DNA of 41,035 nt from Gemmatimonadales bacterium (lineage in GTDB: Bacteria; Gemmatimonadota; Glassbacteria; GWA2-58-10): contig JAJRTS010000006.1 in the NCBI GenBank assembly GCA_024278175.1, positions 1 to 41,035 of the forward strand, written 5' to 3'. Under the pieces are notes generated by a model. That model was not told the origin of the DNA, ran no database searches, and saw only the letters and a program-made list of their open reading frames with translations. Positions 8,101 to 29,350 of this stretch are shown piece after piece (the stretch's first letter is position 1; the number at the start of each line of letters is the position of its first letter). Made by a program: the position numbers and the translations under genes.

Positions 8101-9929
8101 AGAAGCTGATTGTCACCACCCTGGATTCCACGTCTACCGGTGATGCGACAGTTGTCACGCAGACCTACGACGCCGCGGTCACGACCAGTAGTGGTGCGAG
8201 CATGTACGATACCATTACCGTTACTATCGATACGTCCGGTACTAGGGCGTTGTACGCTGACAGCGTGGCTGTGACGCTGTACAACACCAACCTGGCTACC
8301 GACTACTACGTGATTGTTACCGATACGACGATGCTGGTGCGTGACTCCGTACTGGTATCGCTGCAAGCCGGCGCGGTTGCATCGCTGACGCTTGATCCGG
8401 ATTCCAACATGGTGGCTGGCCGCGGCGAATCACTGCCGACGTTGTCCGTTACCCTGAAGGATCAATACGATAACGTCGTTCCCGATTCGATCGTTTCGAT
8501 TGGTCGCATCTACGGTACCGATGGTTCGTTTACCGACACCAGCGGTGTCGCGGTACCTGATACGTCGGCGCTTGGCGATACTGTCAGCGTAGCAGCGGGC
8601 TCTAATGGCGTCGCTACGGCCGTGTTCAAGACCGGCGCGGTGCTGGACAGTGTTTCGCTGAAGGTCTGGACTGCTAATAGCGGAGTGACGGCCAAGTACT
8701 TCACTGCTAAGCTTGGTATCACGGTCTCCGGAGCCTCGTCGTTCACGTTCGTCAGCCCGGACACGACCGGTACTATCGAGCCGGATCTGGGTTGGGCGGT
8801 GGATTCGGTCAGTGCGAGCGGTGATACTGCCTGGGTCGCACAGGGCGCAGCCGCCACCATCACGGCTAATGTTACCGACGGTGACGATCTGAAGAAAGTG
8901 TATGTCAACGTCTGGCGCAGCGAATTGACTAAGGGAACAGACAATATTTTTACCGAGTCTGACCCTGTGTTGATCGCTGAGGCTGCTGACTCCGCGGGTA
9001 TTGCTACCGATTCAGTGACTGTCACGCTGGCAATCGGTGACTCGGCTAACGTGGATACGGCGGTTGTGATCAAATACCAGTTGGTTGCGATTGACGCCAA
9101 TGACGACACGACTTACAGCGACACCATAAAGTACACTGTCGCTCCGAAGCGTGGTAAGAGGGACATGACCAGCACAGCGGTCAACGTTGCCGACGTCATG
9201 CGTCTGGTTTACCTGATCGCGATCGATGAGATCGTGCCGAAGACCGTTGATTACCTGGGTCTGGATCTGGACTCGAGCGGCACCTTCGATACTCCTGACC
9301 TGACCGCCGAGTTGGCGATCTGGAAGGGTACGGGCACTCTGCTTGCCGGTGCTGAATCGCTTGAAAACGCAACCGCCAAGGCTGCTCTGAGCTACGAAGC
9401 CACCGACAAAGCCACTGCCAACCTGGCACTGAGCCTGGAAAGCAGCAACAACATGAACGTGGCTGTCTTCCGGATCAAGTACGATACGGAGAAGTTCGTC
9501 TTCGGTGATGCCAAGGCTACTGATCGTCTCAAGAATGTTTCGATCAAAACCGGCAACAACGAGAAGGACGGTGTCTTCACAATCGTTCTGGTCAACACCG
9601 AGGGTGGGAAGATTCTGCAGGGTAGCGGCGCGATCATGAACATCCAGATCAGCGCGGTCGGCGATAAGTTTGACGGCGTTGGCGACATCTCGCTGTTGAG
9701 CGCTGGCTTCGACGATGGTGTTACGGCTGAGCTCAGCCGCGAAGTTCTGTCGCCGAAGGCCTTGTTGCCGAAGGCTTTTGCTCTGAGCCAGAACTATCCT
9801 AACCCGTTCAACCCGTCGACGACGATCGCCTACGATGTTCCTGAGGGTGATAACGTCCAGGTTCAGCTGAACGTCTACAACATGCGCGGACAGCTGGTAC
9901 GGACACTGGTTAACGAGACTAAGAGCTAA
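5136..9929 (+). CDS. Giant secreted beta-rich protein with dockerin-like and cohesin-like modules; sorting domain truncated by an in-frame TAA
   Basis: The ATG at 5136 was chosen because AAAGGAGGA precedes it and it begins a canonical signal peptide (about residues 1-26, ending AFA-Q). The protein is 1,597 aa, rich in Thr, Ser, Asp and Val, and mostly unrecognised beta-sandwich sequence. An invasin/Big-like Ig segment lies around 1085-1190 ([13 protein letters not shown]). A dockerin-like pair follows at about 1343-1398; its second loop, [12 protein letters not shown], is complete and the first is degenerate. A cohesin-like module covers about 1400-1535. The start of the type A sorting/FlgD-like domain ([20 protein letters not shown]) begins near 1543. 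A TAA at 9927-9929 stops it after NETKS, although the same frame continues with 41 more codons of perfectly typical sorting domain. It is probably a surface protein; the effect of the stop on export is unknown. Confidence 0.85.
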
Positions 9930-10055
9930 GGCTCTTATCAGATCCAGTGGGACGGTTCGGACAACTACGGACGCAGGGCCTCCTCCGGTGTCTACTTCTA
10001 CCGGATCAAGGCTGGCGAGTTCAGCAAGACTCGCAAGATGGTGATCCTCAAGTAA
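9930..10055 (+). pseudogene. Detached C-terminal 41 codons of the sorting domain, in frame after the TAA
   Basis: Reading on in the same frame from 9930 gives GSYQIQWDGSDNYG, then SSGVYFYRIKAG and a terminal KMVILK before a second TAA at 10053-10055. These 41 residues align with the ends of the next two genes (SSGVYFYRMSAG...KMVIVK and SSGVYFYRFVSS...KMIMLK). The stop therefore sits inside a conserved domain, not at its natural end. In both relatives the interrupted position is a small residue before Gly (ESG, GAG). TCA to TAA is therefore the simplest single-base explanation. A real nonsense mutation, a sequencing error and readthrough cannot be separated here. Confidence 0.8.
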
Positions 10056-10073
10056 TTGAGGAACGGTCTTGGA

Positions 10074-10109
10074 GAGTGCCGGATTCTTCAAGAATCCGGC
10101 ACTCTTTTT
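10074..10109 (+). terminator. Strong Rho-independent terminator
   Basis: A 13-bp perfect stem (GAGTGCCGGATTC paired with GAATCCGGCACTC) with a TTCAA loop is followed by TTTTT. It lies 18 nt after the second TAA at 10053-10055, so the transcript covers the complete sorting domain even though translation stops earlier. Confidence 0.9.
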
Positions 10110-10235
10110 AGACGAAGAATTATCACTATTGTCCGTATTGTTACGAAACAACCTTATGGGAATTAGACAATGGGATAAGGCAGATGATTGATTCTGAAGT
10201 TGTATCTGCTCGTCACAAGACGGGGAGGTTAAGAT

Positions 10236-13200
10236 ATGAAACTTAAGAGGCTATCAAGCCTTGTGGGGTTGCTTGCCGCACTGCTCATTTTCTCTGCTGG
10301 CAGGGCTCTGGCTGTGGATGCGATCGCAGTGGCTGATGCACAGGCGTTTCCAGGGGGAAGCGATACGGTCGACGTTCTGGTTACAACAGACGCCGCCTAC
10401 CCTGGCGCCGAAGTAACGCTCAGCTACGATAAGACGAAGCTTTCCACAACGGAAGCCAGTGTCATCGTGAATGAGGCTGCATGGAACTCTAGTTGGGGCG
10501 CACCGCAGGTAGCTGTGGACACCGCCGCCGGAACCGTTAAAATTGGATTGCTTTCCTTCGATGGAGATTCTACGAAAGCAGTTCCGCAAAGCAGTTCAGC
10601 CCTGAAGCTGTTCTCAGTTATCTTCGAGGTTGACTCAACGGTTGCGGTTGGAAGTTACGCTGTTACGCCAAGCGGTGCATTTACATCTGTCGATAACAGT
10701 GACCCGACAGATCCGCAATTTAATGTAACTACGGTCACTAATCTGACCGCCGGTACGTTTGTTGTGCAGAGCCTGTACAACATGTCTGTTGATTCGGTTG
10801 ATGCCGGTCCGGGCGTATTGACTCCGGTGGGCGTCAATCTGTCCAACGGCCGGGCAGTGGCCAGTGTTGAGTTTACTGTCACCTACGACAGCTCTCAGGT
10901 TGTCTACGGAGATTCGATCGAAATCAACGACCTGTATGTGGGCGGAGTTGCAGCACCCGTTGAGGTTACAGATTTCGGTGACTCGGTTAAAGTGGCTATC
11001 TACACGGTTTCATCAGCCACGATTCCGGTTTCCAACACGTCGCGCTGGATTGCCAAGCTGTATTTTGTCTCGGCTGACAGCGCAACAGTGTCGGCGTCTA
11101 ATCCGCTGACTCTCAGTACCGGCACGACAGTTGCCACCGTGGATGCGGAGTGGAATTTGATAAACAACGCTCCGAATCTGGCGGTTGGTAATTTCGATAT
11201 CCAGAGCAAGTACAGCCTGCGGGTCGGTGATGCAACCGCGCCCAAGGGTGGCTCGGATACGGTTAACGTGTACCTCAGGGCTGCTGAGTCTGTCAACGCG
11301 GTTGAAGCCGTATTGACGTTCAACGATAGCAACTTCACGGTAACCGCCGACGATGTAATTTTCAACGGTGGTGTTTTCACCGGTGGTAACGCCAGTGTTT
11401 CGGTGACGCTTACCGACTCTACTGTGAAGATTATTGCTCTGCCTGCCGATCCGACAGATAGTATCGCGGCCGGCAACACGGAAAAGTTGCTGTTCAGTGT
11501 GATTCTGGGTGTCAAGGACAGCGCTGCCGTGGGGTATGATAGCGTGAGTGCGACAGGTATTCTGACCGTTCGCGACGCTGAGTACAACCCCACAGCGATA
11601 GCAATTCCCTCGGTTACCAAGGGTGCTTTCCGCGTGGTGGCCGCCTACGAGATCGAGATCAAGAGCCGTAATGCTTCGCCACAGGCCAAGAGCGTACCGG
11701 TCAGCGTATTGTTGACCAGCGAGGGCGATATCTACTCGGCCGAGGTTGTGGTCAAGTACGATACCACCAGGCTGGCGTACGTTGACGGTTCGGTTGCTCT
11801 TAACGATGAAGTCTGGACCGGGACAGCAGCACCGACTCCGGAAATCCTCGTTGCCGGTGACAGCATCAAGATCGGTCTTTTCGATCTTAATGACGTTAAT
11901 AACAAGATCGCGGGTGGTGGAGCAGGCCGGACATTGCTGAGTATCAGTTTCGATGTCACGGATTCGCTGGCTACTGGTGATTCGACGATGCTGACTCCCA
12001 GCGGGCTGGTGTTTGGCCGGGATAGTAACTACGATGCGGTGGAATATACCCCCAACGGTATCGTCGGTTATCTCAAGGTCACATCGGACATCATTCCTCC
12101 CTCTGCCGTGACCAACGCTTCTGCTACAGCCGGCACCAACTCGATTACCCTGAGTTGGAAGAACCCGACCGCGTCAGATCTGGACTATGTCAAGATCGTG
12201 CGTAACGATGGTGCGGATTCCGTGGTTGTAGTGACGCGTGATACTCCGGTTTCCGGTGCCACGGACACGTTCGAGGATGCGACTGTTACCGAAGGTGTCG
12301 TTTACTACTATACGATCATGGTTGCCGACGATAACGGCAACATGGGCGATAATGTGGTGCTCGGCCCGGTTAACATCGGTGTTTTGACGCAGACAGAGGT
12401 CAAAATCTCTTCCGCTACAGCTTTGGCGGGGGGAGTGGCGAAAGCGAAAATCAAGCTGAAGAACCCGGACAATAATATCTCCGGGATGATGTTCAAGCTG
12501 ACTTTCGACGTCACTAAGTTGCAGCTTACCGATATCGTTCCCGGACCGGATGCCGCGGGTGTGGCTCCTGTGTCCATGATCAATATCGATAGCGTAAACG
12601 CCTCCGGCGCGCTGCAGTTCGACGCGATCGACCTTTCGGGTAACCCGGTGCTGGCCGGTACTGGCGTCAAGACCGTGCTTGTGATTGAATTCAAGGTCGA
12701 CTCGTCCGTAGTCACGGGCGATTCAACCGCTCTGGCACTGAGTGACGTGTCGCTTAGCGATCCTGATGGGAGCGATATTGAGCTGGCCACAGCCGACGGT
12801 ACGGTCAGAATTACCGGCTCGATCGAAGTTGACCTGAACGGTGATGGTTCCATCAACCTCGGCGATATCTGGTTCTATTTTAACCGGGATGAGCTGGTTG
12901 TATTCGAATCGCTTGCCGATCTGATCTCGACTCTGCTCGCTCAGCCTTTGCCGACCAGCATGTTGGCTGCCGTGCAGGATGCGGTTGCCACAAGCTCCCG
13001 GGCGGTCGATGGCGCGGCGTTGATCAACCTCAAGACCAATTTCGAGATTGTTGCCGCCAGGTTCACTTTCAGCTATGATACCATGCAAGAGCTGAGTGGA
13101 GTGTACCTTAGCCAGTCGATGGCCGGTAAGGTGATGATCAAGAAAGTGGTTACCAATGGCCGGCTGTATGTCGACATCGTCAGCCTGGACGGTTTCATTC

Positions 13201-13631
13201 CGGCCGAGGTTGGCGAGTTGTTCAGTGTCGCTTTCCGTGATGTGGATCACGAGACCGCCGGCCTGACTCTCGACAAGGTCGAGGTGGCCGACCGCGATGG
13301 TAACGTGTACATCGAGGCCGCCAAGGCAGGCCGGATTGCCTTGCCAAAGGCCTTCGCACTGTCTCAGAACAGCCCGAACCCGTTCAACCCCTCGACCACC
13401 ATCAAGTATCAGGTGCCGGAGGGTAAGGCGGCCAAGGTGCAGATCGTTGTCTTCAATGTTCGCGGACAGAAGGTCATTACCCTGGTGGATGAGCTCAAGG
13501 AGTCCGGAGATTTCACGGTCAACTGGAACGGTACAAATACCAGCGGACAGCGTGTTTCTTCCGGTGTGTACTTCTACAGAATGAGCGCCGGTGATTTTTC
13601 GGCGGTGAGAAAGATGGTAATTGTGAAGTAA
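10236..13631 (+). CDS. Secreted scaffold-like protein with about six cohesin-like modules, FN3, dockerin EF-hand and type A sorting domain
   Basis: ATG at 10236 follows GGGGAGG. A signal peptide (about 1-26, ending ALA-V) is followed by four consecutive cohesin-like modules (about 28-165, 180-325, 328-470, 475-615). Each contains the VxVxLxYD-x-x-x-L strand and a TVKIGLLSFDG-like or SIKIGLFDLND-like second half. An FN3 domain (about 621-715), a fifth cohesin-like module (about 716-862), one complete dockerin-type loop DLNGDGSINLGD (about 867), a sixth divergent cohesin-like module (about 920-1030) and the [20 protein letters not shown] sorting/FlgD-like domain (about 1035-1131) complete it. 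The architecture resembles a scaffoldin, but no carbohydrate-binding module or enzyme was recognised. It probably displays or cross-links dockerin-bearing partners at the cell surface. Module boundaries are approximate. Confidence 0.88.
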   Translation: MKLKRLSSLVGLLAALLIFSAGRALAVDAIAVADAQAFPGGSDTVDVLVTTDAAYPGAEVTLSYDKTKLSTTEASVIVNEAAWNSSWGAPQVAVDTAAGTVKIGLLSFDGDSTKAVPQSSSALKLFSVIFEVDSTVAVGSYAVTPSGAFTSVDNSDPTDPQFNVTTVTNLTAGTFVVQSLYNMSVDSVDAGPGVLTPVGVNLSNGRAVASVEFTVTYDSSQVVYGDSIEINDLYVGGVAAPVEVTDFGDSVKVAIYTVSSATIPVSNTSRWIAKLYFVSADSATVSASNPLTLSTGTTVATVDAEWNLINNAPNLAVGNFDIQSKYSLRVGDATAPKGGSDTVNVYLRAAESVNAVEAVLTFNDSNFTVTADDVIFNGGVFTGGNASVSVTLTDSTVKIIALPADPTDSIAAGNTEKLLFSVILGVKDSAAVGYDSVSATGILTVRDAEYNPTAIAIPSVTKGAFRVVAAYEIEIKSRNASPQAKSVPVSVLLTSEGDIYSAEVVVKYDTTRLAYVDGSVALNDEVWTGTAAPTPEILVAGDSIKIGLFDLNDVNNKIAGGGAGRTLLSISFDVTDSLATGDSTMLTPSGLVFGRDSNYDAVEYTPNGIVGYLKVTSDIIPPSAVTNASATAGTNSITLSWKNPTASDLDYVKIVRNDGADSVVVVTRDTPVSGATDTFEDATVTEGVVYYYTIMVADDNGNMGDNVVLGPVNIGVLTQTEVKISSATALAGGVAKAKIKLKNPDNNISGMMFKLTFDVTKLQLTDIVPGPDAAGVAPVSMINIDSVNASGALQFDAIDLSGNPVLAGTGVKTVLVIEFKVDSSVVTGDSTALALSDVSLSDPDGSDIELATADGTVRITGSIEVDLNGDGSINLGDIWFYFNRDELVVFESLADLISTLLAQPLPTSMLAAVQDAVATSSRAVDGAALINLKTNFEIVAARFTFSYDTMQELSGVYLSQSMAGKVMIKKVVTNGRLYVDIVSLDGFIPAEVGELFSVAFRDVDHETAGLTLDKVEVADRDGNVYIEAAKAGRIALPKAFALSQNSPNPFNPSTTIKYQVPEGKAAKVQIVVFNVRGQKVITLVDELKESGDFTVNWNGTNTSGQRVSSGVYFYRMSAGDFSAVRKMVIVK

Positions 13632-13645
13632 ACGAGGCAAAGCAG

Positions 13646-13673
13646 GGGTCCCGCACCGCAAGGTGCGGGACCC
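13646..13673 (+). terminator. Stable hairpin with GCAA tetraloop, no U-tract
   Basis: A perfect 12-bp stem (GGGTCCCGCACC with GGTGCGGGACCC) is closed by a GCAA (GNRA) tetraloop, 15 nt after the stop of the preceding gene and 46 nt before the next ATG. There is no T-run, so it may stabilise or process the 3' end instead of terminating. Some transcription could continue into the next gene. Confidence 0.6.
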
Positions 13674-13718
13674 GAACCTGCCCCGTTTCCTAACATAGCT
13701 CATCAGGGGGAAAGTGAT

Positions 13719-15590
13719 ATGAAAATAATTAAGATACTATTCCTCGGAATAGTACTTGTAATGTTCAACATTGCCTACTTGGCAGCCCAGGATTTGCCCG
13801 ATTCGATAACGGTCAGTATGACGTCGGCAGATCCGGGTAGCGTCATGGAGATAACTGTTGACGTACGTTTCCAATCGGATAATACCGGCGGCCTGGTGCT
13901 TGTATTGACCGGATTCCCTACGAGTCTTGTCAGTACGGAAAGCGGAGTTAATCTGGCTGATGGTACCGCACCGACGGATGACGGGACTTGGTATTATCAG
14001 TGGACCGACGGCTACGGATTACCTCTGAAAAATGCGGCAAGCCTTGCATCGGATGTGCTGATGAGTCCTGGTGATCCAACAGCTACTGATAGCTCGGCAA
14101 CATTAGCGGTCACGCTTCTCGGCGCCAATGTTACCTCGTTGAAAACACTTCCAGTTGAATTTGGGGGATTCGATCCCACAAAGATCGGACCCATGCTGAA
14201 AGTGTGGATCAACACGCCGGCGGATTTACCTGAGGGTACGTATAATGTCCGGGTTGCAGAGGGCGGAGCCGTTATCGGTTCTTTCTCGCCTGCTGGAACC
14301 CTGGATGGTGTGCCTTACACCTCTGTGGATCAGTTGGTTGTGGCGATTATCCCTGATAACACCTACCTGGAAATGGTGGCGGATCAGGGTGTAACCAGCG
14401 GTGGAAGCGCCCAGATCAGCGTCAAGCTGGCCAACAAGGACACGGTTGCCTCGGGCAGCTTCGTGATTACCTACCCCGGCGCGTACATGATGCTGGATTC
14501 GGTAGCCGCGGGTGCCAACGCTGGTAGCGCTGCCTTCAGCTTCAGTGCTCCGGCTGATTCCGGTACTCTGCTGGCCGCCAGTCACATGCCCAAGACGACC
14601 ACGGTGTCGTTCACGGGCGCCACGATCGCTCCCAGCGGTCTGGGTGACTTGTGCAAGCTGTACTTCGATATTGCCCCGGTTGGCGCCGGTGTGACTGCTT
14701 CGGTTGCGCTGAGCTCGGTGGTCCTTAAGGATCCTGCGGGCGCGGACGTGATCGATCAGATCCCGCCCACGGTGTCGGCCACCGCACTCTCGTTCTCCTA
14801 CGGTGACACGCTGTCGCTGGCGGACATGATGGGTAAGGGCGTGGCAACCATTATCGAGGGTCAGCTTTACGTGCCGGTTATGTTGACGAATGCTTCGGCG
14901 GTGGCAGGTGTCGAATTCGTCATCATGGAGCCGGTCGGAAAAGACAGCATCCTTTCGCTCTCTTCCGATATCGTGAAGAACGTGGATCGCGCCACCGGCT
15001 GGATGGTTAATGCTGCTGACAGCGGCAGAGCCGTTCGTGTGGTTGCTTTCTCGCCTGTCGAGGGTGGTGCTATTGCCGCCGGCAGCGGCAAGTTGTTTGA
15101 TGTGGTGTTCGACATCAATACCGCCGCTTTCACGATACCCGTCGGCGATGCCACCGAGGACCTGATTCTCGGGCTCAGTGGTGTGAGGCTTACCGGTTCC
15201 GATGGTTCGATGCTTGGTGTCGAGGCCATGGGAGCTACGGCCAGCCTGGATTACCGTGTGCCCAACGAGGGCGAGGGCGTTGGTCCCGGAGCGACTCTGC
15301 CCAAGGCTTTCAGCCTCAAGCAGAACCATCCGAACCCGTTCAACCCGTCGACCACGATCAGTTACCAGATTCCCGATGATGCCGGCAGCGTTCGTTTTAC
15401 GCTGAACGTTTACGACATCCGCGGCAGGATGGTACGGACTCTGGACAGGGGCATGAAGGGTGCCGGTACCTATTCCGTGTTCTGGGATGGCACCGACAAC
15501 AACGGCCGCCAGGTCAGCAGTGGCGTTTACTTCTACCGCTTCGTCTCTTCCAAGTACAATGCTACTCGGAAGATGATCATGCTCAAGTAA
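13719..15590 (+). CDS. Secreted protein with three cohesin-like modules and type A sorting domain
   Basis: ATG at 13719 is preceded by GGGGGAAAG. A signal peptide (about 1-23, ending LAA-Q) is followed by three beta modules: about 28-205 (atypically long and divergent), about 215-355 (TSGGSAQISVKLANKD...SGSFVITYPG, cohesin-like) and about 375-515 (LYVPVMLTNASAVAGVEF, cohesin-like). The sorting/FlgD-like domain begins at about 527 ([20 protein letters not shown]) and ends KMIMLK. No dockerin loop was seen, so it could be a receptor-only partner for the dockerin-bearing neighbours. It follows the preceding scaffold-like gene by 87 bp with only the U-less hairpin between, so co-transcription is possible. 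Secretion through the type IX route is inferred from the tail; no secretion component is encoded nearby. Confidence 0.85.
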   Translation: MKIIKILFLGIVLVMFNIAYLAAQDLPDSITVSMTSADPGSVMEITVDVRFQSDNTGGLVLVLTGFPTSLVSTESGVNLADGTAPTDDGTWYYQWTDGYGLPLKNAASLASDVLMSPGDPTATDSSATLAVTLLGANVTSLKTLPVEFGGFDPTKIGPMLKVWINTPADLPEGTYNVRVAEGGAVIGSFSPAGTLDGVPYTSVDQLVVAIIPDNTYLEMVADQGVTSGGSAQISVKLANKDTVASGSFVITYPGAYMMLDSVAAGANAGSAAFSFSAPADSGTLLAASHMPKTTTVSFTGATIAPSGLGDLCKLYFDIAPVGAGVTASVALSSVVLKDPAGADVIDQIPPTVSATALSFSYGDTLSLADMMGKGVATIIEGQLYVPVMLTNASAVAGVEFVIMEPVGKDSILSLSSDIVKNVDRATGWMVNAADSGRAVRVVAFSPVEGGAIAAGSGKLFDVVFDINTAAFTIPVGDATEDLILGLSGVRLTGSDGSMLGVEAMGATASLDYRVPNEGEGVGPGATLPKAFSLKQNHPNPFNPSTTISYQIPDDAGSVRFTLNVYDIRGRMVRTLDRGMKGAGTYSVFWDGTDNNGRQVSSGVYFYRFVSSKYNATRKMIMLK

Positions 15591-20568: not shown

Positions 20569-22749
20569 TCAGGTTCCGCGCACGGCCCTGAGCACTTCCT
20601 CGACAGATGTAATCCCCTTGGATGCTTTCTGCAGGCTGTCCTTGAATATCGGTATCATCCCGTTTTCCAGCGCCGCCTGGCGGATTTCCTCGCTCGATGC
20701 GCACCTGAGCACCATTTCCTTGATCGCCTCGTTCATCGTCAGGACTTCGTGCGTACCAATCCGGCCCTTGTAGCCTGTGCCGTTGCAGGCGTCGCAGCCC
20801 TTGGCCTTGAACAGTGTGGCGCCCTCGGCCAGTTCCTCGAGCAGCTTCAACTCGTCGTCCGGAGCCGAGTACTCTTCTTTGCACTTGGGACACAGCCGCC
20901 GCAGCAGGCGCTGGGCGCAGACCAGCAGCAGCGAGCTTGAGACCAGAAACGGCTGGATACCCATGTCCAGGAAACGGGTCACCGTGCCGGGCGCATCGTT
21001 GGTGTGCAGGGTGCTGAACAGCAAGTGGCCTGTGAGCGAGGCCTCGATCGCGATCTCGGCGGTTTCCAGATCGCGGATCTCACCGACCAGGATCACGTCG
21101 GGGTCCTGGCGAAGGTAGCAGCGCAGGGCGGAGGAGAAGGTGAGCCCGATTTCCCGCCTCATCTGCATCTGATTGATCCCGAACAGCTCGTACTCCACCG
21201 GGTCCTCGGCGGTCTGGATGTTAATTCCGGGATCGTTGATCTTGTTCAGCGCGGCGTACAACGTGGTGGTTTTTCCGCTGCCGGTGGGGCCCACGTGCAG
21301 GACCATTCCGTAGGGGCTCCTGATCAGCTTCTCGTAAATTTTCAGGTTGTAGTCGGAAAACCCCATCATGTCCAGCGAGACCGTTGTATTGGTTTTGTCC
21401 AGGAGACGCATAACCACCTTTTCCCCGTAAACCATCGGCCCGGTGGCCACGCGAAGGTCGACGTCTATCCCTGTGCGGGTGAACTCCTTGAACTTGATCC
21501 GGCCGTCCTGGGGCAGGCGCCGCTCGGCGATATTGAGCCCGGCCATGATTTTCAGCCTGCTCATCAGGGCCTTGAGCGAGTTTGGCGGCAGCTTGAGCGC
21601 CACCCGGCAGATTCCATCCTCCCTGTAGCGGACCAGCACTTCTTTTTCGAACGGCTCGATATGGATGTCGCTGGCTCCGCGCGTGTAGGCGTCCTCGATA
21701 ATCCGGTTGGCCAACTGAACAATCGGTGTGCTTTCCTCGTCCACGTCCTCGTCCAGCTCCACGGACTCGATACTGTCGGCTCCGTACTCGTTGCCCACCA
21801 GTGCCGCCACCTCGTCGATCCCCGAGGTGTCGTGCTGGAAGAAACCATCGATCACTTTCCTGATCCGTGCCTCGGCGCTGACCACGATTTTAGCTACTTC
21901 CAGCTTGGTGGCCCAGCGAAAATTGTCGATCCGCTCGAAATCCACCGGGTTGCTGATCGCGATCTCCACCGACTGGGTGCCGGCCTTTTTGATCGGCAGG
22001 ATCAGGAACTTCTTCAGGTTTTTTTCGCCCACCAGGTTCATCAGCTTGTCGTCGGGAACGAAATCGTCCTCGATCCTGAAATACTCGTGGTCGGTGAGCC
22101 GGCTAAGATAATAGGCCAACTCGGTGTCGGTCATCTTGATTTCCGGCCTGTGCACCTTCTGGATGATCTTGGCCGAGTAGTCGGCCACTTCCTCCAGGAG
22201 CTGACGGTCTCTTTCGGTAAAGAGCTCCGGTCCCTCGGGCGGGTTTTTGTTGATCATCTGCACCGCGCCGATCACCGAGTCTGTGATCAGCGGCACGGTA
22301 ATCATACTCTTGGTCTGGAAACTGGTTTCCTTGTCCACGCCGCTGAAGAAATTCGGGTCGTTCTGGGTGTCGAGCGAGATGTAGGTCTCGGCGGTTTCGA
22401 TCACCTTGCCGACAATCCCCTGGCCGCGCTTGAGGGTGAGCTTGCGAAGGTGGTCGGATTTCTTCTTGAACGCCTCCTTGAGCTTCTTGTTCTCGCTGTA
22501 GAGCATCTCGCTGAAATAGACGTGGGTGAAATGGATCAGGTTGTCCGCGCCCATGGTGTAGATCGTAATCGCCTGGGCCTGCACCAGCTCGACCAGTTTC
22601 CGGATTGTCAGCTCCAGGACGGTTTCGAGGTCTTTCTCGGTGATTTCCCGTTTCGAGACCAGGACCTTGAGCAAGTTGTTCAGCACCTGCTTCTCGTCCA
22701 CGGCGCTTTTATGCCGGCTACCGGCAACTTTGGCGGGGGAGTCGCTCAT
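20569..22749 (-). CDS. GAF-MshEN-GspE/PilB-type secretion ATPase
   Basis: This hexameric-type AAA+ motor would power type II secretion or type IV pilus assembly. From the ATG at 22749 (726 aa) it has an N-terminal GAF sensor domain (about 30-180), an MshEN/T2SSE-N domain (about 185-340, a known c-di-GMP-binding fold in relatives) and the T2SSE ATPase. The ATPase has Walker A GPTGSGKTT at about 487-495, Asp box AEDPVEYE, Walker B DPDVILVGEIRD, His box TGHLLFSTLHTND and a four-Cys zinc motif CPKC...CDAC at about 620-655. An upstream TTG at 22788 is possible, but AAGAAGGAC before 22749 and a promoter start near 22794 favour the ATG. GAF fusion is unusual for GspE. No GspF, pilin or secretin gene lies nearby. 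Confidence 0.92.
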   Translation of the reverse strand: MSDSPAKVAGSRHKSAVDEKQVLNNLLKVLVSKREITEKDLETVLELTIRKLVELVQAQAITIYTMGADNLIHFTHVYFSEMLYSENKKLKEAFKKKSDHLRKLTLKRGQGIVGKVIETAETYISLDTQNDPNFFSGVDKETSFQTKSMITVPLITDSVIGAVQMINKNPPEGPELFTERDRQLLEEVADYSAKIIQKVHRPEIKMTDTELAYYLSRLTDHEYFRIEDDFVPDDKLMNLVGEKNLKKFLILPIKKAGTQSVEIAISNPVDFERIDNFRWATKLEVAKIVVSAEARIRKVIDGFFQHDTSGIDEVAALVGNEYGADSIESVELDEDVDEESTPIVQLANRIIEDAYTRGASDIHIEPFEKEVLVRYREDGICRVALKLPPNSLKALMSRLKIMAGLNIAERRLPQDGRIKFKEFTRTGIDVDLRVATGPMVYGEKVVMRLLDKTNTTVSLDMMGFSDYNLKIYEKLIRSPYGMVLHVGPTGSGKTTTLYAALNKINDPGINIQTAEDPVEYELFGINQMQMRREIGLTFSSALRCYLRQDPDVILVGEIRDLETAEIAIEASLTGHLLFSTLHTNDAPGTVTRFLDMGIQPFLVSSSLLLVCAQRLLRRLCPKCKEEYSAPDDELKLLEELAEGATLFKAKGCDACNGTGYKGRIGTHEVLTMNEAIKEMVLRCASSEEIRQAALENGMIPIFKDSLQKASKGITSVEEVLRAVRGT

Positions 22750-22800
22750 TGAGTCCTTCTTGTTCAACGGTTTGGGCAAAGAATTCAACTTTGACGATTA

Positions 22801-22829
22801 ATTATAAACCCGGCGGGCGGTGGTTACAA
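22801..22829 (-). promoter_or_regulatory. Promoter for the GspE-like gene
   Basis: On the minus strand TTGTAA (22824-22829) and a perfect TATAAT (22801-22806) are spaced by exactly 17 bp. The predicted start near 22794 is about 45 nt before the ATG at 22749 and only about 6 nt before the alternative TTG. This decides the start. Confidence 0.7.
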
Positions 22830-22949
22830 GAGGATAAAGACCCGCCCCGGAGTTTCCGCCTGAACACTGATGCAAAAGCGATGCCATTATTGCCGATGGC
22901 ATGAAGATTGCAATTATCATCCAACCGAACCTTATATCAGGAGTACGAA

Positions 22950-23111
22950 ATGTCTTCGAACCCCGAAGTTTTACTCTCGTGCGTGCATCTGTTCTCCCTG
23001 CTGGGCGAACGAACCAGGTCAAGAGAATGCGACCGTCAGTTTGTAGAACGGATGCGCAGTTCGCTGGAAGCCGGCCAGCTTGACAGCAACCGCCACTCTG
23101 AGATAAAATAG
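22950..23111 (+). CDS. Small hypothetical protein, 53 aa
   Basis: A short frame begins at ATG 22950 with AGGAG (22939-22943) at good spacing and ends at TAG 23111. It would encode a soluble, charged, probably helical peptide (MSSNPEVLLSCVHLF...ERTRSRECDRQFVERMR). Two cysteines (C11, C27) and many Arg are visible, with no membrane segment and no recognised domain. It lies in the divergent gap between the GspE-like and ExeA-like genes. The promoter proposed for the ExeA-like operon overlaps its 3' end, so one of the two may be wrong. Only the ribosome binding site supports it being real; comparison in related genomes is needed. Confidence 0.35.
   Translation: MSSNPEVLLSCVHLFSLLGERTRSRECDRQFVERMRSSLEAGQLDSNRHSEIK
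23080..23109 (+). promoter_or_regulatory. Promoter for the ExeA-like operon
   Basis: A perfect TTGACA (23080-23085) is followed after 18 bp by TAAAAT (23104-23109). The start would be near 23116, about 80 nt before the ATG at 23195. It overlaps the 3' end of the small frame at 22950-23111. Confidence 0.5.
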
Positions 23112-23194
23112 CAAGATAAGCGGCGCTAACTGCAAATAATATTGTAAGTTGGCTGTAGCCGCATCCCGATTTACTACTGTATCTTGGCGGATCG

Positions 23195-25312
23195 ATGCTG
23201 CCGGAATATCTCAAATACTGGGGCCTGAGCCGCCCGCCGTTTTCACTGACGCCCGACCCGGAAATGCTCTACATGAGCCGCCAGCATCAGGAAGGGCTGA
23301 TCCGGCTCAAGTACGCTGTCGTATCCAACAAGGGTGGGGCATTACTGATCAGCGAAAACGCCGGAGACGGCAAAACCAGCCTGTTGGCCAGGTTGCGTAC
23401 CGAGCTGGCGCAGTATTACCGGGGCAACTGCCGGGTGGTGTTTATCGACCATCCTACCCTGACCGCCAACCAGATGGTCGGGGAAATCGCCCGTCAACTG
23501 GGCGTGGGAACGGCCACCACCGACAAGCTGGCGGTGCTTAACGCGTTGCGCTCATTTTTGCTGGAGAGTCACGAGCAGGGCGAGAAGTGCGTGGTGATGT
23601 TAGACGAGGGCCAGATGCTCTGTCATCGCCCGGACCTGCTGCAGGAGTTGCGAATCCTGCTTAATTTCTGTGTTTCCGACGCGTTCCTGCTCACGTTCAT
23701 CCTCTCGGGGCAGAAACCGCTCGATGGGGCGATTCGCGCGATGCCGGAATTTTATCAACGTCTGCCGGTCCGTTTTTTCCTGCGCAACCTCGATATGGAC
23801 GACACCCGCGAGTTGATCCGTTACCGTCTGCAGGTGGCCGGTTGTGAGCCGGGGCGTGATATTTTCGGCGAGGACGGCTACGCCGGGATTTTCAATCATT
23901 CCAAGGGATGCCCGCGGGTGATCTGCTCCGTGGCCGACCTCTCGCTGGTTATCGCTCACAGCCGTTTTGCCGATAAAGTCGACTTCGTTTCGGTAAGCCA
24001 GGCCACCAGCGACATGAACCGTACCGACGGGGCCTACCACTACTACCATTTTCTAAAGTCGTTTCAGGAGCCGGAGGCCGCAAGCGGCAAGCAAACCGGG
24101 CTTTCGCGGTTACCGGAGGCCTCCTGTCCGGCTTGCACCGGCGAGGTTACTCCGGAAGCGGTTTTCTGTCTTCACTGTGGCTACGCGCTCAAGGATAAGC
24201 CTGTTGCTGAGTCGGCCGTGCAGGAAGCCGCAATCGAGCCGCCAGCGCAAGCCGAGCCTGCTGAGCCCGGACCGGCGGAACAGGACCCACCGCCGGAACG
24301 GGGCCATCCCGTTGCCGGAGCCGGGGAAGTAACAGAACCGTCCGGCACGGCGATGTTCTCGTTTGATGAAGGCAGCGGCGAGGCTCCCGTAGAGAACCCT
24401 CAGCGTGCCATCCGCTTCGTCCTGGAGGGCGAGAGCGACAAGCCGGCCCCGGCGCAAGCCGGGCCGGAGCAGATGGACGGCCAACCGGCAGCCGATAATC
24501 CGGCGGAAGAAAATGCCGGTCTGGAACCGGATCCGGCTGAGAAAAAAATAGCGGAAAAGCAACCGGAAATCCTCACAGCGGAAGATGTGGAGTGCAAGCG
24601 GGACGGTGGGGAAGTACAAACAGAACATGGAACGGAGTCCTTTGCCGGGCAGGGTGAGGAGCCTGAGCCCGGCCAGGCATTGGAGCCCGAAACGATTAAA
24701 TGCGGTTTCTGCGGGCTGGAGCTTGTCCAGGAAACCCTCGAATGCCCGAACTGCGGCGAGACGCTGAGCAAAGGCCCTGCCGTGGTGAGCGAGGAAGATG
24801 ACGCGCGGGAATACGCAGCAGAGGAGCAGGCCCTTGAGAGAGACTTTCAGCAACCGGCCCCGGAGGAGCAGTTGCTTGCCGGGCTAAAGGACCTCAAACT
24901 GGAAGAACATATGATGGCGGGCAGGCAGAGCCCGGCCAGGGGCAACGGTGAGTTGCTCCGCCTGCCCCGCCGTTTTCGCTTTTTCGGCCGTTCGCCGGTG
25001 GTGCAGTTCGTGGCCCGCGATGCAGGTGATTTTTTTACCTCGCGCTGCGGTGTGCGGATCGGGCGCGATGAGATTCGTTTCGAGATGGACGGCGATACCA
25101 ACAGCCTGGCATACGGGATGGTCGAACAGGTCAGGACGGATACGGTTTCTAATCAGGGCGCCGTTTTACTCAGTCAGCTGGTGATAACAGCCACGGACGG
25201 CACCTATCGCCTGACCCTGCCGTTCAAGGCCGATACCGGTGGTCGTCTGGCCGCCCTGCTGCAAAACTATATCGGCGGCAGATTACCCGCAGCGGCCGGG
25301 AACACTGCCTGA
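23195..25312 (+). CDS. ExeA/GspA-like AAA ATPase with two zinc ribbons and unknown C-terminal domain
   Basis: The N-terminus (YWGLSRPPFSLTPDPEMLYMS) and AAA domain (about 1-280) match ExeA/GspA, which helps place the type II secretin through the cell wall. Walker A is SENAGDGKTS (53-62), lacking the usual leading Gly; Walker B is VVMLDEGQ (D137, E138). In place of ExeA's membrane segment and peptidoglycan-binding domain there is a CPAC...CLHC zinc ribbon (about 311-330) and an acidic Pro/Ala/Glu-rich linker (about 335-500). A second zinc ribbon CGFC...CPNC (about 502-523) and a beta-rich C-terminal domain (about 585-700) that I do not recognise complete it. It starts an operon with the next two genes (32-nt and about 9-nt gaps) and diverges from the GspE-like ATPase, which suggests a shared machine. 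The ATPase class is firm; the role is inferred. Confidence 0.82.
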   Translation: MLPEYLKYWGLSRPPFSLTPDPEMLYMSRQHQEGLIRLKYAVVSNKGGALLISENAGDGKTSLLARLRTELAQYYRGNCRVVFIDHPTLTANQMVGEIARQLGVGTATTDKLAVLNALRSFLLESHEQGEKCVVMLDEGQMLCHRPDLLQELRILLNFCVSDAFLLTFILSGQKPLDGAIRAMPEFYQRLPVRFFLRNLDMDDTRELIRYRLQVAGCEPGRDIFGEDGYAGIFNHSKGCPRVICSVADLSLVIAHSRFADKVDFVSVSQATSDMNRTDGAYHYYHFLKSFQEPEAASGKQTGLSRLPEASCPACTGEVTPEAVFCLHCGYALKDKPVAESAVQEAAIEPPAQAEPAEPGPAEQDPPPERGHPVAGAGEVTEPSGTAMFSFDEGSGEAPVENPQRAIRFVLEGESDKPAPAQAGPEQMDGQPAADNPAEENAGLEPDPAEKKIAEKQPEILTAEDVECKRDGGEVQTEHGTESFAGQGEEPEPGQALEPETIKCGFCGLELVQETLECPNCGETLSKGPAVVSEEDDAREYAAEEQALERDFQQPAPEEQLLAGLKDLKLEEHMMAGRQSPARGNGELLRLPRRFRFFGRSPVVQFVARDAGDFFTSRCGVRIGRDEIRFEMDGDTNSLAYGMVEQVRTDTVSNQGAVLLSQLVITATDGTYRLTLPFKADTGGRLAALLQNYIGGRLPAAAGNTA

Positions 25313-25344
25313 GCAGAGTACATCGGGGGGCGTGGAGGACGGTA

Positions 25345-26010
25345 ATGGCAACGGATACGGTTGAGCTGTGGAGTTCTGTCGCGCTGGTTGTCGTTTTGCT
25401 GGCGGGATACCTCTGGTTGCGTAGCCACCAGCATCGCAGGCGGCTGGAGCGGGAGCGCAAGCTGCGGTGCAAGGAGTTGATTCTCGACAACCGCCTGCCA
25501 CTGGCTCGCAGGAAAGTTGATTTCGACCTGCTGGTCGATCTGGTCAAGCTGGGTATCGATGCCGGGCAGTTGGAAAAAGTGGTCGAGCTGCTGACCGCCG
25601 TACCTGTGGAGCACCATGTCAGCGAGGATGGGCAGGGTAACGGCTTGAACGCGAAGCTCGATTTTGAAGGAGAGTTGTCTGATTCCGCAGCAGCAGCGCC
25701 CGGGACGGCGGACAGGGCAGGCGGCAGCGATGATCCCGCGGGCGAGGAAGCTGTCGAGGTTGTGGAGGGTATGCCTGTCGAGAAGGAAAAAGCCTGGTTT
25801 CGCATGGCGCACAACCGGTTTCGTCATGCGCTGGTGGACAAGGAAATTACCGAGCGTCAGGCACGGTTCAGGATGCTGGTCAGGATGGTGGAGCTGGGTA
25901 AAAAGGCAGTGCAGGATGACGGTGCCAAGCCGGTGAAACGCAAGGAATACGAGTTGGAACTCTGGGACAGGTTTTACGAAAACGAATACCTGGAACTCAA
26001 TAGCGAATAG
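25345..26010 (+). CDS. Single-pass membrane protein with helical cytoplasmic region, unknown function
   Basis: ATG at 25345 is preceded by GGAGG. The 221-aa product has one N-terminal transmembrane segment at about 8-26 (LWSSVALVVVLLAGYLWLR) followed by a basic stretch (RSHQHRRRLERERKLR), which points to a cytoplasmic body. Two predominantly helical blocks (about 35-95 and 140-221) flank a low-complexity Ala/Gly/Asp linker (about 105-140). No domain family was recognised. It lies in an operon between the ExeA-like ATPase and the exported TPR/SUMF protein, so it may link the cytoplasmic ATPase to the envelope. That is an inference from order only. Confidence 0.65.
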   Translation: MATDTVELWSSVALVVVLLAGYLWLRSHQHRRRLERERKLRCKELILDNRLPLARRKVDFDLLVDLVKLGIDAGQLEKVVELLTAVPVEHHVSEDGQGNGLNAKLDFEGELSDSAAAAPGTADRAGGSDDPAGEEAVEVVEGMPVEKEKAWFRMAHNRFRHALVDKEITERQARFRMLVRMVELGKKAVQDDGAKPVKRKEYELELWDRFYENEYLELNSE

Positions 26011-26019
26011 CGGATAGTG

Positions 26020-27855
26020 ATGATCAAGCGAGACCACATAATCAGAAACCTGCTGGTCGTGGTGTTGGCGATGACCCTGTTGATGCCCGGTAGCGCGGCC
26101 AGGGCCGGCAGCCGTCTGGGTAAGGTGACCGGAGTGATGGGCAAGGTGGTGGCGATCAACCTAGGCAGCCTGCATGGTGTGCGCCAGGGTCTCCGTGGGC
26201 GGGTGTTTAAGTTCGACGAGGAAAAGCAGACTGTCGATGTCGCCGAAATCCAGGTGATCGGTGTCGAGGACGAGAGCTGTCTGGCCAAAATAACATCTCT
26301 GCTTACCGACAGTGTCAGGATCGGGCAATTCGTTGATATCCAGGGTACGGTCAGTCCACGTACTCTGCAGCGCGTTGATCTGGTGGCGGAGCTGGAGGAA
26401 GCGGCGCGTAATTATTTTGCCGTACGGCAGTACACGGAGCCCGACAGCGCCAACTGCCTCAGCGTCTGCAACGAACTGCTCAGGCGCAATCCGGATAATC
26501 GCCTGGCTCTGGAGTTGAAGCGCCGGATGGTCAATAATTATTATACCTGGGCAGAGCGGGAAACCAACAACGGCTACTTTACTTATGCGTTGATCTACTA
26601 CGGCAGGATTCGTAAAATCAACCCGGCTCAGGAGCGAATCTACCCGCTGATGTGGGATTTGATCGACCTGATAGACGTGGAAAGCGAAGTTAAACTAGGC
26701 GACATAGTCCCGGGCCGTCCGCCTGACTACTACTATGCTGTCGGCCAACAATACTACCAGAACGGCCAGTTCGACAAGGCGATCCGCTATTACCGCTGGA
26801 TTCTGGACCATCACGCGCGTAGCGATCTGGCCGCCGGCGAGGGGATCGAAAGGTGTAACGAGATGAAAACGCTGCTGGCCGATCTGCGTAAAATCAGGCT
26901 CAGCCGGGTGACCATGGAAGCCGAGCAGGAGCGCAAGCGGGAGCAGGAAGTGCTGCAGCGCCGCAAAAAGTTGGAGCAGGCGCGCTACTATATCACCGTG
27001 GCCGAGGAAAAGTTCGGCAAGCGGGATTGGACCGGGGCGTTGGTTTACTACCTCAAGCTGCTCGATATTTTCCCCGACGATTCGATCGCCCAAAGCCGGC
27101 GGGAGTTTATCAGCAGTGTCGACATGATTATGATTCCCGCGGGCGAATTCAGCCGCGGCAGCAGCGAGAGGGAGATAGGCGAGGTGCGTTTCGATTTCGC
27201 CGGTAGCGGTATACTTAACCGCGAACTACCCAAAAACTGGGTCTATCTCGATTCCTTCTATCTCGATCGCTACGAGATCACCAATAAACAGTACAAGGAT
27301 TTCGTAGCCAGTACGGGCCACAGTCCGCCGCTGATGTGGCAGAACGGCGCCTACCCCGCGGGCAAGGGCGACCACCCGGTAGTCTATGTCTCCTGGCTCG
27401 ATGCGGTTGCTTACGCGCGCTGGATCGGCAAGCGTCTGCCCACCGAGCTGGAATGGGAAAAGGCCGCGCGCGGAGCCAACGGTTACCAGTGGCCCTGGGG
27501 CGACCAGTTCCACCGGTTCAGGGCCAATGTGAAAGAAAGCGGAAAGGGCGGCACGATGCCGGTGGGCAGCTACCTCAACGGCGCCAACGAATACGGTGTG
27601 TTGGACCTGGCGGGCAATGTTTGGGAATGGGTCCAGGATCGGCTCCGGCCCTACGATGGATACGGCAGAGAGCTGATCTATTTTCCCAAAGGCTATCTGA
27701 AATGCATGCGCGGCGGATCGTTTAAAACCACGGGTGAGTACGCACGTGGCGCGTTCCGTGGCGCGGGCGAAGTGGACCGGATTTACTCCGACGTGGGTTT
27801 CCGCTGTGCCCGCGACGTGGTGGTTACGCAGGAAATCCCCCAGGAAGCGGAATAA
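26020..27855 (+). CDS. Exported TPR protein with C-terminal cysteine-less SUMF1/FGE-like domain
   Basis: ATG at 26020 is preferred over the in-frame GTG at 26017, and only 9 nt follow the previous stop, so translation is probably coupled. A signal peptide (about 1-29, ending ARA-G) is followed by a small beta domain (about 30-105, GKVVAINLGSLHGVRQGLRGRVF) reminiscent of the FlgT C-terminal fold. A helical TPR-like region with a charged coiled coil covers about 115-360. The sulfatase-modifying-factor domain begins with MIMIPAGEFSRGS (about 369-611). Typical SUMF1 motifs are present: ITNKQYKDF, HPVVYVSWLDA, RLPTELEWEKAARG, YGVLDLAGNVWEW, RGGSF and VGFRCARD. The two catalytic cysteines of true formylglycine-generating enzymes (RGGSWLC...YC) are replaced by RGGSFKT...YA, so a binding or structural role is likely. 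Activity is not expected. Confidence 0.85.
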   Translation: MIKRDHIIRNLLVVVLAMTLLMPGSAARAGSRLGKVTGVMGKVVAINLGSLHGVRQGLRGRVFKFDEEKQTVDVAEIQVIGVEDESCLAKITSLLTDSVRIGQFVDIQGTVSPRTLQRVDLVAELEEAARNYFAVRQYTEPDSANCLSVCNELLRRNPDNRLALELKRRMVNNYYTWAERETNNGYFTYALIYYGRIRKINPAQERIYPLMWDLIDLIDVESEVKLGDIVPGRPPDYYYAVGQQYYQNGQFDKAIRYYRWILDHHARSDLAAGEGIERCNEMKTLLADLRKIRLSRVTMEAEQERKREQEVLQRRKKLEQARYYITVAEEKFGKRDWTGALVYYLKLLDIFPDDSIAQSRREFISSVDMIMIPAGEFSRGSSEREIGEVRFDFAGSGILNRELPKNWVYLDSFYLDRYEITNKQYKDFVASTGHSPPLMWQNGAYPAGKGDHPVVYVSWLDAVAYARWIGKRLPTELEWEKAARGANGYQWPWGDQFHRFRANVKESGKGGTMPVGSYLNGANEYGVLDLAGNVWEWVQDRLRPYDGYGRELIYFPKGYLKCMRGGSFKTTGEYARGAFRGAGEVDRIYSDVGFRCARDVVVTQEIPQEAE

Positions 27856-28126: not shown

Positions 28127-29350
28127 ATGCCCCCCAGCAACTGGCGACGCTCTGCAACTGCCTCGGTGCGTAAGCGCCAGGGATACGGCGGGCGGTTGAT
28201 CTGGCCGGTGTTGCTGTGTGCGGCCATAGTGCTTATCACCACGGCGGACAGAATTCAGGCCGGGCCTTTTCTCGACCAGCGGATCAGCGAACTGGTCTGG
28301 CTCAATTGCAGTGGCCGGGCCGTGGAAAGTTTCGAGCGGGTCGGGGCGCTGATCTCCGAGCAGCCTGACAACTACGCCGCCTACCTGCTGCGGGCCAACT
28401 GCTATGGTTGGTTTATCGCCCGCAATCCCGACAACAGAATGTACGACAACCCGTTGATCGAGTCGTTAGATGCCTGTATCGAGCGCGCGGAGCAGGTGGA
28501 TGAGGATTCGCCGCAGTACGGCCAGGCCCTCTATTTCAGTGCGCTGGGCAGGGTAATGCTGGCCAGGTTCAAAGCCGTGCGAGGCTATCAGTTTTCCTCA
28601 CGATGGAGCACGCGCGGGGCCGCCGATGCCGCCGACGAGTTGATCAAGCGCTTCCCTGATGATCTCGATGCGCGCCTGGCCCGGGCCGTATTCGACGCCA
28701 CCTGGGGCGGAAGCTCGATCTGGCAGCGGATGGCGCTGTTCACGCTCACTATCCCCCGCGGCAACCGTGAGCGCGGTATCCGGACCCTGGAGGAGATAGC
28801 CGATAGCGATGGTGACTCGAAGTTCTGGGCGATGCTTGTGCTGCTGGACATCTACATGGCAGACCAGGCCACGGCCCAGCAGTATCTGGAAACGGCCGAG
28901 AAACTCAATACGCGGTTCCCGGATAATTCGGTGATCCAGCTTGAAATGGCGGACAGCTATCGCCGCCTGGAACGCTGGGTGCTGGCCGAGGCGGTTTATC
29001 GGAGTATCCTGACCAAGGTTAACAACCGGGTGCCGAGCTACGACGATGTGGTGTTCGAGATCAGCCGCCTGCGGGTTGTGGAATGCCAGGTCAACCTGCT
29101 CAAGATGGACGAGGCCTTTAAGCTGGTGCGCGAAATCCTGATCTCCAACCCGATCAACCCCGAATGGTTGGTGCCCTGGGCCCATTACTGGACAGCGCGG
29201 ATTTATGTCCACCGTGAGGAATTTCTGCGGGCCCGGCGCGCGCTGGAGTATGCCCGCGACGGGAAGGATTTCAACAAGCTGCACGAGCGCTCGGACAAGT
29301 TGAAAGACCGGGTGAAGAAGATGGTCGAGGAGAGGGAGAAGGGACGGTAG
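28127..29350 (+). CDS. TPR-like repeat protein, probably envelope-associated
   Basis: ATG at 28127 follows CAGGAGACGAC. The 407-aa product has a basic N-terminus, a hydrophobic segment at about 22-42 (LIWPVLLCAAIVLITTADR) that could be a signal anchor or signal peptide, and then an all-helical body of degenerate TPR-type repeats (for example EQPDNYAAYLLRANCYGWF, FPDDLDARLARAVFD, FPDNSVIQLEMADSYRRL). The C-terminus is strongly charged. No enzyme domain was recognised. It follows the SUMF-domain gene by 271 bp in the same orientation; that gap holds only short GC-rich hairpins such as CGCGG-TTAG-CCGCG at about 28051-28064. It may serve the same envelope assembly, but this rests only on position. 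Confidence 0.75.
   Translation: MPPSNWRRSATASVRKRQGYGGRLIWPVLLCAAIVLITTADRIQAGPFLDQRISELVWLNCSGRAVESFERVGALISEQPDNYAAYLLRANCYGWFIARNPDNRMYDNPLIESLDACIERAEQVDEDSPQYGQALYFSALGRVMLARFKAVRGYQFSSRWSTRGAADAADELIKRFPDDLDARLARAVFDATWGGSSIWQRMALFTLTIPRGNRERGIRTLEEIADSDGDSKFWAMLVLLDIYMADQATAQQYLETAEKLNTRFPDNSVIQLEMADSYRRLERWVLAEAVYRSILTKVNNRVPSYDDVVFEISRLRVVECQVNLLKMDEAFKLVREILISNPINPEWLVPWAHYWTARIYVHREEFLRARRALEYARDGKDFNKLHERSDKLKDRVKKMVEEREKGR

Follow-up and report, generated by a model that had tools for sequence, protein, structure and literature searches.

The stretch of DNA analysed here, called the window below, is 41,035 nucleotides long (G000:C105:1-41035) and belongs to a Candidatus Glassbacteria genome, placed in Gemmatimonadota in current taxonomy; the assembly (G000) comprises 4.18 Mb in 113 contigs. 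Within it, a gene for a motor ATPase with a GAF domain is transcribed away from an operon for an ExeA-like AAA ATPase, a membrane linker and exported TPR proteins. An initial annotation of this locus described the motor as GspE/PilB-type and held a dedicated, signal-controlled assembly system to be plausible, possibly one for the export of surface proteins. We compared the locus across six Glassbacteria genomes (G000-G004 among them) and phylum samples of 200-298 genomes, and searched genome G000 by family and by stretch. The four genes first described (GAF motor, AAA/zinc-ribbon protein, membrane linker and exported TPR/SUMF protein) are real and lie where they had been placed, and the promoters seen on both arms are likewise present as sigma-70-like elements. 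The operon of three products is there too, but that description was incomplete, as a fifth gene ending at 29350, a small open reading frame (ORF) and a sigma-54 promoter had been overlooked. The features are as follows.

20569..22749, minus strand: gene for GAF-PilB, predicted type IVa pilus extension ATPase, 726 amino acids (Pfam T2SSE and GAF, nearest structures, tree)
20587..21738, minus strand: T2SSE/PilB motor core with Walker boxes and a four-cysteine zinc motif (Pfam, alignment)
21826..22068, minus strand: MshEN/N1 remnant of GAF-PilB, both cyclic di-GMP (c-di-GMP) motifs gone (Pfam MshEN, residues 241-321; motif tests)
22171..22632, minus strand: GAF domain of GAF-PilB (Pfam, motif alignment, structure comparison)
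22801..22829, minus strand: sigma-70-like promoter toward pilB, TTGTAA-17-TATAAT (consensus match only)
22897..22911, plus strand: predicted sigma-54 promoter TGGCATGAAGATTGC, in all six genomes as TGGCATGAANNTTGC (alignment; rpoN present)
22950..23111, plus strand: small ORF, 53 amino acids, without a transmembrane helix (alignment, codon statistics)
23080..23109, plus strand: sigma-70 promoter TTGACA-18-TAAAAT, overlapping the end of the small ORF (six of six genomes)
23195..25312, plus strand: ExeA/GspA-like AAA ATPase with two zinc ribbons and a C-terminal PH-like domain (Pfam, transmembrane prediction, fold)
24836..25309, plus strand: folded C-terminal stretch of the ExeA-like protein, including the PH-like domain (AlphaFold, Foldseek)
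25345..26010, plus strand: single-pass membrane linker, 221 amino acids, of no known family (one hydrophobic helix; missing in G003)
26020..27855, plus strand: exported TPR protein with a C-terminal FGE-like (SUMF) domain, without the catalytic cysteine pair (Pfam, alignment)
28166..29350, plus strand: exported TPR protein, conserved fifth gene (synteny; alternative ATG at 28127)

Judged from its sequence, the supposed GspE is PilB, the extension ATPase of a type IVa pilus. Its domains are clear in Pfam (GAF, E=9e-13; T2SSE, E=6e-126), and the start is probably the ATG at 22749, with a TTG at 22788 as the alternative. Among 61 genomes searched, only the six from Glassbacteria yielded the GAF form at full length; elsewhere the best matches begin past the GAF region, with an identity of about 48%. 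Where the gene surroundings of such relatives were read, the matching gene opens a pilB-pilT-pilC operon, followed in several by pilS-pilR. When 49 ATPases were placed in a maximum-likelihood tree, the six GAF-PilBs formed one clade, sister to the PilBs of the pilBTC(SR) operons with support of 96/91, and the second PilB-type ATPase of G000 (on contig C50) fell outside this grouping. The GspE-like gene thus essentially clusters with complete pilus operons of its phylum, an outcome that the initial annotation had itself set against a separate system. The nearest solved structures are likewise PilBs, those of M. xanthus and Geobacter, at 448-443 bits, compared with 398 for the best GspE. The motor shares with the PilBs of M. 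xanthus (3jc8) and G. metallireducens (5tsg/5zfr) the N2D/CTD motor core, Walker boxes, zinc motif and phylogenetic position, and the Walker motifs (GPTGSGKT) and zinc cysteines (C620, C623, C652 and C655, alignment numbering) are invariant in all six GAF-PilBs. It differs from known PilBs in carrying a GAF domain for the c-di-GMP motif pair, in lying outside a pilBTC operon and in scoring under a curated cut-off.

The front end of the protein departs from that of its relatives. In MshE-type ATPases c-di-GMP is bound by the MshEN module, whose 53 residues are made up of two motifs of 24 residues each and a spacer of 5 (PMC5013675; reviewed in PMC11656802). The tandem c-di-GMP motif model NF053729 matches all 18 operon PilBs and the C50 PilB, and none of the six GAF-PilBs. 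In the alignment, the GAF domain occupies the position of both MshEN motifs of the relatives, and behind it Pfam still detects a remnant of the MshEN fold. We conclude that in Glassbacteria the predicted c-di-GMP-binding front end of PilB has been exchanged for a GAF domain. The arrangement common to MshE/MshEN ATPases, an N-terminal ligand-binding module ahead of a pilus motor, is kept, but the module is now a GAF and both 24-residue motifs are gone. The best matches of this GAF among solved structures are the GAF domains of cyclic-nucleotide phosphodiesterases, with a likeness to the cGMP-binding GAFs of PDE5/PDE6. Measured against the NKFDE motif of GAF domains, the N-K...F...D residues are invariant in all six genomes, with R in place of the last E. 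No GAF-PilB turned up in the literature, where the search was confined to open papers, and a scan of genome contigs for the GAF region found matches in three Glassbacteria records only, using patterns that are narrow and thus cover other phyla little.

As the initial annotation stated, no secretin, platform protein or pilin lies next to these genes; the pilus parts lie elsewhere in the genome. Only four T2SSE proteins are encoded in G000, namely the window PilB, the C50 PilB and two PilTs. Contig C99 carries PilT-PilT-PilC-PilS-PilR without pilB, as do G001 and G004 as far as read, and its PilC shares 57-60% identity with the operon PilCs, compared with about 32-36% for the PilC of C50. Contig C16 carries PilM-PilN-PilO-PilP-PilQ (position and size being the basis for naming PilN, PilO and PilP) and C6 a pilin cluster, and the secretins of the genome lie on C50 and C16. 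The genome therefore holds what accompanies PilB in known pili, i.e., PilC, PilT, PilMNOPQ, pilins and PilSR. Gene order in the relatives indicates where the motor gene is missing: there, lptF/G and sprA, in some an M28 peptidase gene and in most a helix-hairpin-helix (ComEA-like) gene are followed by pilB, whereas on Glassbacteria contig C92 lptF/G-sprA-ComEA-like is kept but followed by the gene of a sigma-54 activator instead of pilB. This gap would be filled by the window pilB, which we therefore read as the relocated motor of an otherwise ordinary, scattered type IVa pilus, and not as part of a secretion system lacking a secretin. A second pilus/T2SS-like system was also observed in G000 (G000:C50:35160-48020; L064, L072), comprising a PilB with a c-di-GMP module, PilC, a pilin-like protein, a secretin, an ExeA-like ATPase with a SPOR domain and a TPR protein.

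The region between the two arms holds more than a pair of sigma-70-like promoters. A TGGCAY-N5-TTGC pattern with its GG/GC elements is exact in all six genomes and is a predicted sigma-54 promoter; rpoN is present in every one of them, and the pattern has 20 matches in G000 compared with 7 for a reversed control. On its 3' side, in all six, follow a Shine-Dalgarno sequence and then the small ORF, of 51-53 amino acids (44 in one genome), with a conserved core CVHLYSLLGxRxKSRxYDRLF. Of 15 pairs compared, 14 give the small ORF a pN/pS below 1, and the differences at codon positions 1, 2 and 3 number 231, 151 and 353, a pattern by which it appears to evolve as a protein under purifying selection. 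Among 200 phylum genomes the small ORF was present in six, every one of them Glassbacteria. In five genomes the last part of the ORF runs into the TTGACA-TAAAAT promoter; in the sixth the ORF stops short of it, and the promoter is retained. A possible further sigma-54 site, directed toward pilB (22886-22872, with one mismatch), was dropped, as it is not conserved in the six-genome alignment. Elsewhere in the genome, several sigma-54 matches (L117, L118, L119) lie upstream of genes reading like flagellar rod/hook and cap proteins, and G000 appears flagellated.

The first large product of the divergent operon does have an AAA_22 domain (E=3.4e-14, residues 50-177) and zinc ribbons (residues 308-330 and about 499-521), as expected of the ExeA-like ATPase first reported, but that label does not extend to the rest of the protein: no convincing transmembrane segment was predicted, none at all outside the AAA domain, and there is no periplasmic or peptidoglycan-binding part. 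The C-terminus is instead a predicted PH-like domain (AlphaFold mean pLDDT 83), for which the top Foldseek matches are PH, PTB and related folds at modest TM-scores near 0.4. The AAA_22 domain is what the protein has in common with the secretin-assembly ATPase GspA/ExeA (PMC4098917, PMC9239104) and with the ExeA-like protein of C50; it differs from the former in its zinc ribbons, its PH-like domain and the lack of an adjacent GspB or secretin gene, and from the latter in lacking a transmembrane segment, a SPOR domain and a neighbouring secretin. A related AAA domain, over 266 residues, is also found in the XrtA/PEP-CTERM-associated ATPase family TIGR03015, for which the window protein scores 148.3 bits compared with a cut-off of 324.5; no exosortase or exopolysaccharide genes lie in the window cluster. 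For the linker, an assignment to CcmD (15 bits, under the cut-off) was rejected, and no relatives were found among viral contigs.

In the TPR/SUMF protein, the RGGS motif is followed by FKTTGEY, where bacterial FGE (6muj/2q17) has LCHDSYC. The active-site cysteine pair is missing, and the FGE domain is on this comparison predicted to be catalytically dead. An FGE-fold C-terminal domain is shared with FGE and FGE-like proteins (PorK/GldK, EgtB, PvdO), from which the protein differs in the missing cysteine pair, in the fusion behind a TPR region and in having no lipobox that we could see. An identification as GldK/PorK was rejected at 70 bits compared with a cut-off of 350, below its scores to other FGE-type families. 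An AlphaFold model of the protein, made with four sequences, reached a mean pLDDT of 51 and is usable in the TPR part only. Across 298 phylum genomes the N-terminal region gave strong matches in the six Glassbacteria only, with marginal TPR-type matches in four others. In G002 a gene of ~252 amino acids (L068:4754-5512), which reads like a PHP-domain protein, lies between the linker and TPR/SUMF genes.

The cluster is conserved in all six Glassbacteria genomes (the linker in five), and the phylum samples yielded its marker genes from no other genome. The functional link between the genes that was first suggested gains from this co-occurrence, but only weakly, because the whole neighbourhood, including the housekeeping flanks (thioredoxin, pgsA-like, tmk and ABC transporters), is equally syntenic; we therefore dropped synteny as a proof of function. 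The same fact bears on the explanation that pilB and the operon are mere neighbours and that the operon serves another purpose, for instance type IX secretion, the export of exopolysaccharide or envelope assembly in general, a possibility that we take seriously while doubting it. When flanks are syntenic too, adjacency counts for little; the AAA domain is distantly like the XrtA/exopolysaccharide-associated ATPase (148 bits), FGE-like domains occur in PorK/GldK, and the genome has a SprA-type translocon together with window proteins bearing T9SS-like C-terminal domains. However, four other genes separate pilB from tmk in G004 and none separates pilB from the operon, and the cluster contains no gld/por or exopolysaccharide genes. 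The restriction of the cluster and its marker genes to Glassbacteria would also suit the dedicated machine first proposed, in which a GAF-GspE powers the ExeA-like ATPase, linker and TPR/SUMF protein apart from any pilus, as would the unlikeness of the window ExeA-like protein to the secretin-linked one of C50. We regard such a machine as very unlikely, given a cluster without platform protein, secretin or pilin, a motor that is phylogenetically a PilB, sister to those of complete pilBTCSR operons, and a genome whose type IVa pilus otherwise lacks an extension motor of its own. What survives of the proposed signal-controlled assembly does so in another form, as a GAF in place of the c-di-GMP front end and a sigma-54 promoter between the arms. 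It is highly improbable, finally, that the C50 PilB drives both pilus systems, with GAF-PilB a paralogue that has given up extension for a regulatory or moonlighting role: the C50 protein does retain the full N-terminal c-di-GMP module, and the stem branch of the GAF-PilBs is long, but the invariant Walker motifs and zinc cysteines speak against a lost motor function, and C50 is equipped with a PilC and ExeA/secretin of its own and with a PilB that groups outside the operon PilBs.

The best explanation, and in our judgement a likely one, is a displaced PilB of a type IVa pilus, altered in its front end and accompanied by an accessory divergent operon. Several observations weigh against it. The stem branch of the GAF-PilB clade is long (1.68), and rate may affect its position in the tree. 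GAF-PilB also misses the cut-off of the PilB equivalog model TIGR02538 (580.9 compared with 675.65 bits), a shortfall that is expected because its N-terminus is replaced, the cut-off being a scoring convention and not a functional feature. The contigs are unordered, so distances among the pilus loci cannot be read, and no secretin, platform protein, pilin or other pilus gene adjoins the window cluster, so that what ties the divergent operon to the pilus is its position. The linker is absent from the intact locus of G003 and is dispensable there, the flanks are as syntenic as the cluster, and none of the pilus loci on C99, C16 and C50 showed a sigma-54 site, so that control of the window site by PilR is a tentative reading.

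On the explanation of a displaced PilB, hexamers of the motor would act on an inner-membrane base formed by PilC/PilT/PilT of C99 and PilMNOPQ of C16 and would polymerise the pilins of C6. Because the GAF stands where the PilB of relatives is gated by the MshEN c-di-GMP module, extension would most likely be licensed by what the GAF domain binds, a small molecule or a redox cue. The divergent arm would be read from the sigma-70 promoter and, together with the small ORF, also from the sigma-54 promoter, plausibly served by PilS/PilR. Secretin assembly is a known task of ExeA-like ATPases (PMC4098917), and TPR pilotins are known in it as well. The cytosolic AAA/zinc-ribbon/PH protein, the linker and the exported TPR and TPR/dead-FGE proteins may be accessory factors in assembling or anchoring the pilus base or the secretin, with the exported ones working on the periplasmic side, a role suggested by the kinds of protein present and by their position, and the operon probably helps to build or control the pilus. 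A fuller version, which we consider unlikely as it stands and offer tentatively, would have the extension motor gated by a GAF ligand (e.g., a mononucleotide second messenger) and the base or secretin assembled by an undescribed sigma-54-switched set of the 53-residue protein, AAA/zinc-ribbon/PH ATPase, linker, and TPR and TPR/dead-FGE proteins.

Features of type IX secretion were observed around these loci. In other Gemmatimonadota (L075, L076, L080, L082), sprA, the translocon gene of the type IX system, stands between lptF/G and usually a ComEA-like gene, with an M28 peptidase gene in some, and directly after these comes pilB-pilT-pilC(-pilS-pilR); this neighbourhood consistently ties genes of type IX secretion to those of the type IV pilus (SprA was tested in two of the four). 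Two stretches of G000 (5136-15590 of the window, and G000:C92:34815-36233) were noted for large exported proteins that carry cohesin, FlgD-like and T9SS-like C-terminal domains (the Por_Secre_tail matches lie partly under the cut-off) and for a SprA homologue of about 2080 amino acids, the latter encoded elsewhere in the genome. An exported Ig/PKD-repeat protein at 273-4673 of the window has a dockerin-like end just under the Pfam cut-off and lies near a cohesin-bearing protein at 10764-13631.

What is unusual at this locus is the swap of a sensor in PilB together with an unexplained, lineage-specific operon. A scattered pilus can pass for an unfamiliar secretion system if one locus alone is read. 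The front end of PilB is one decision point for pilus extension, and in several bacteria it is c-di-GMP that decides (PMC11656802). With a GAF domain in place of this front end, Glassbacteria provide a natural experiment, which would show that the motor takes other allosteric inputs through the same joint.

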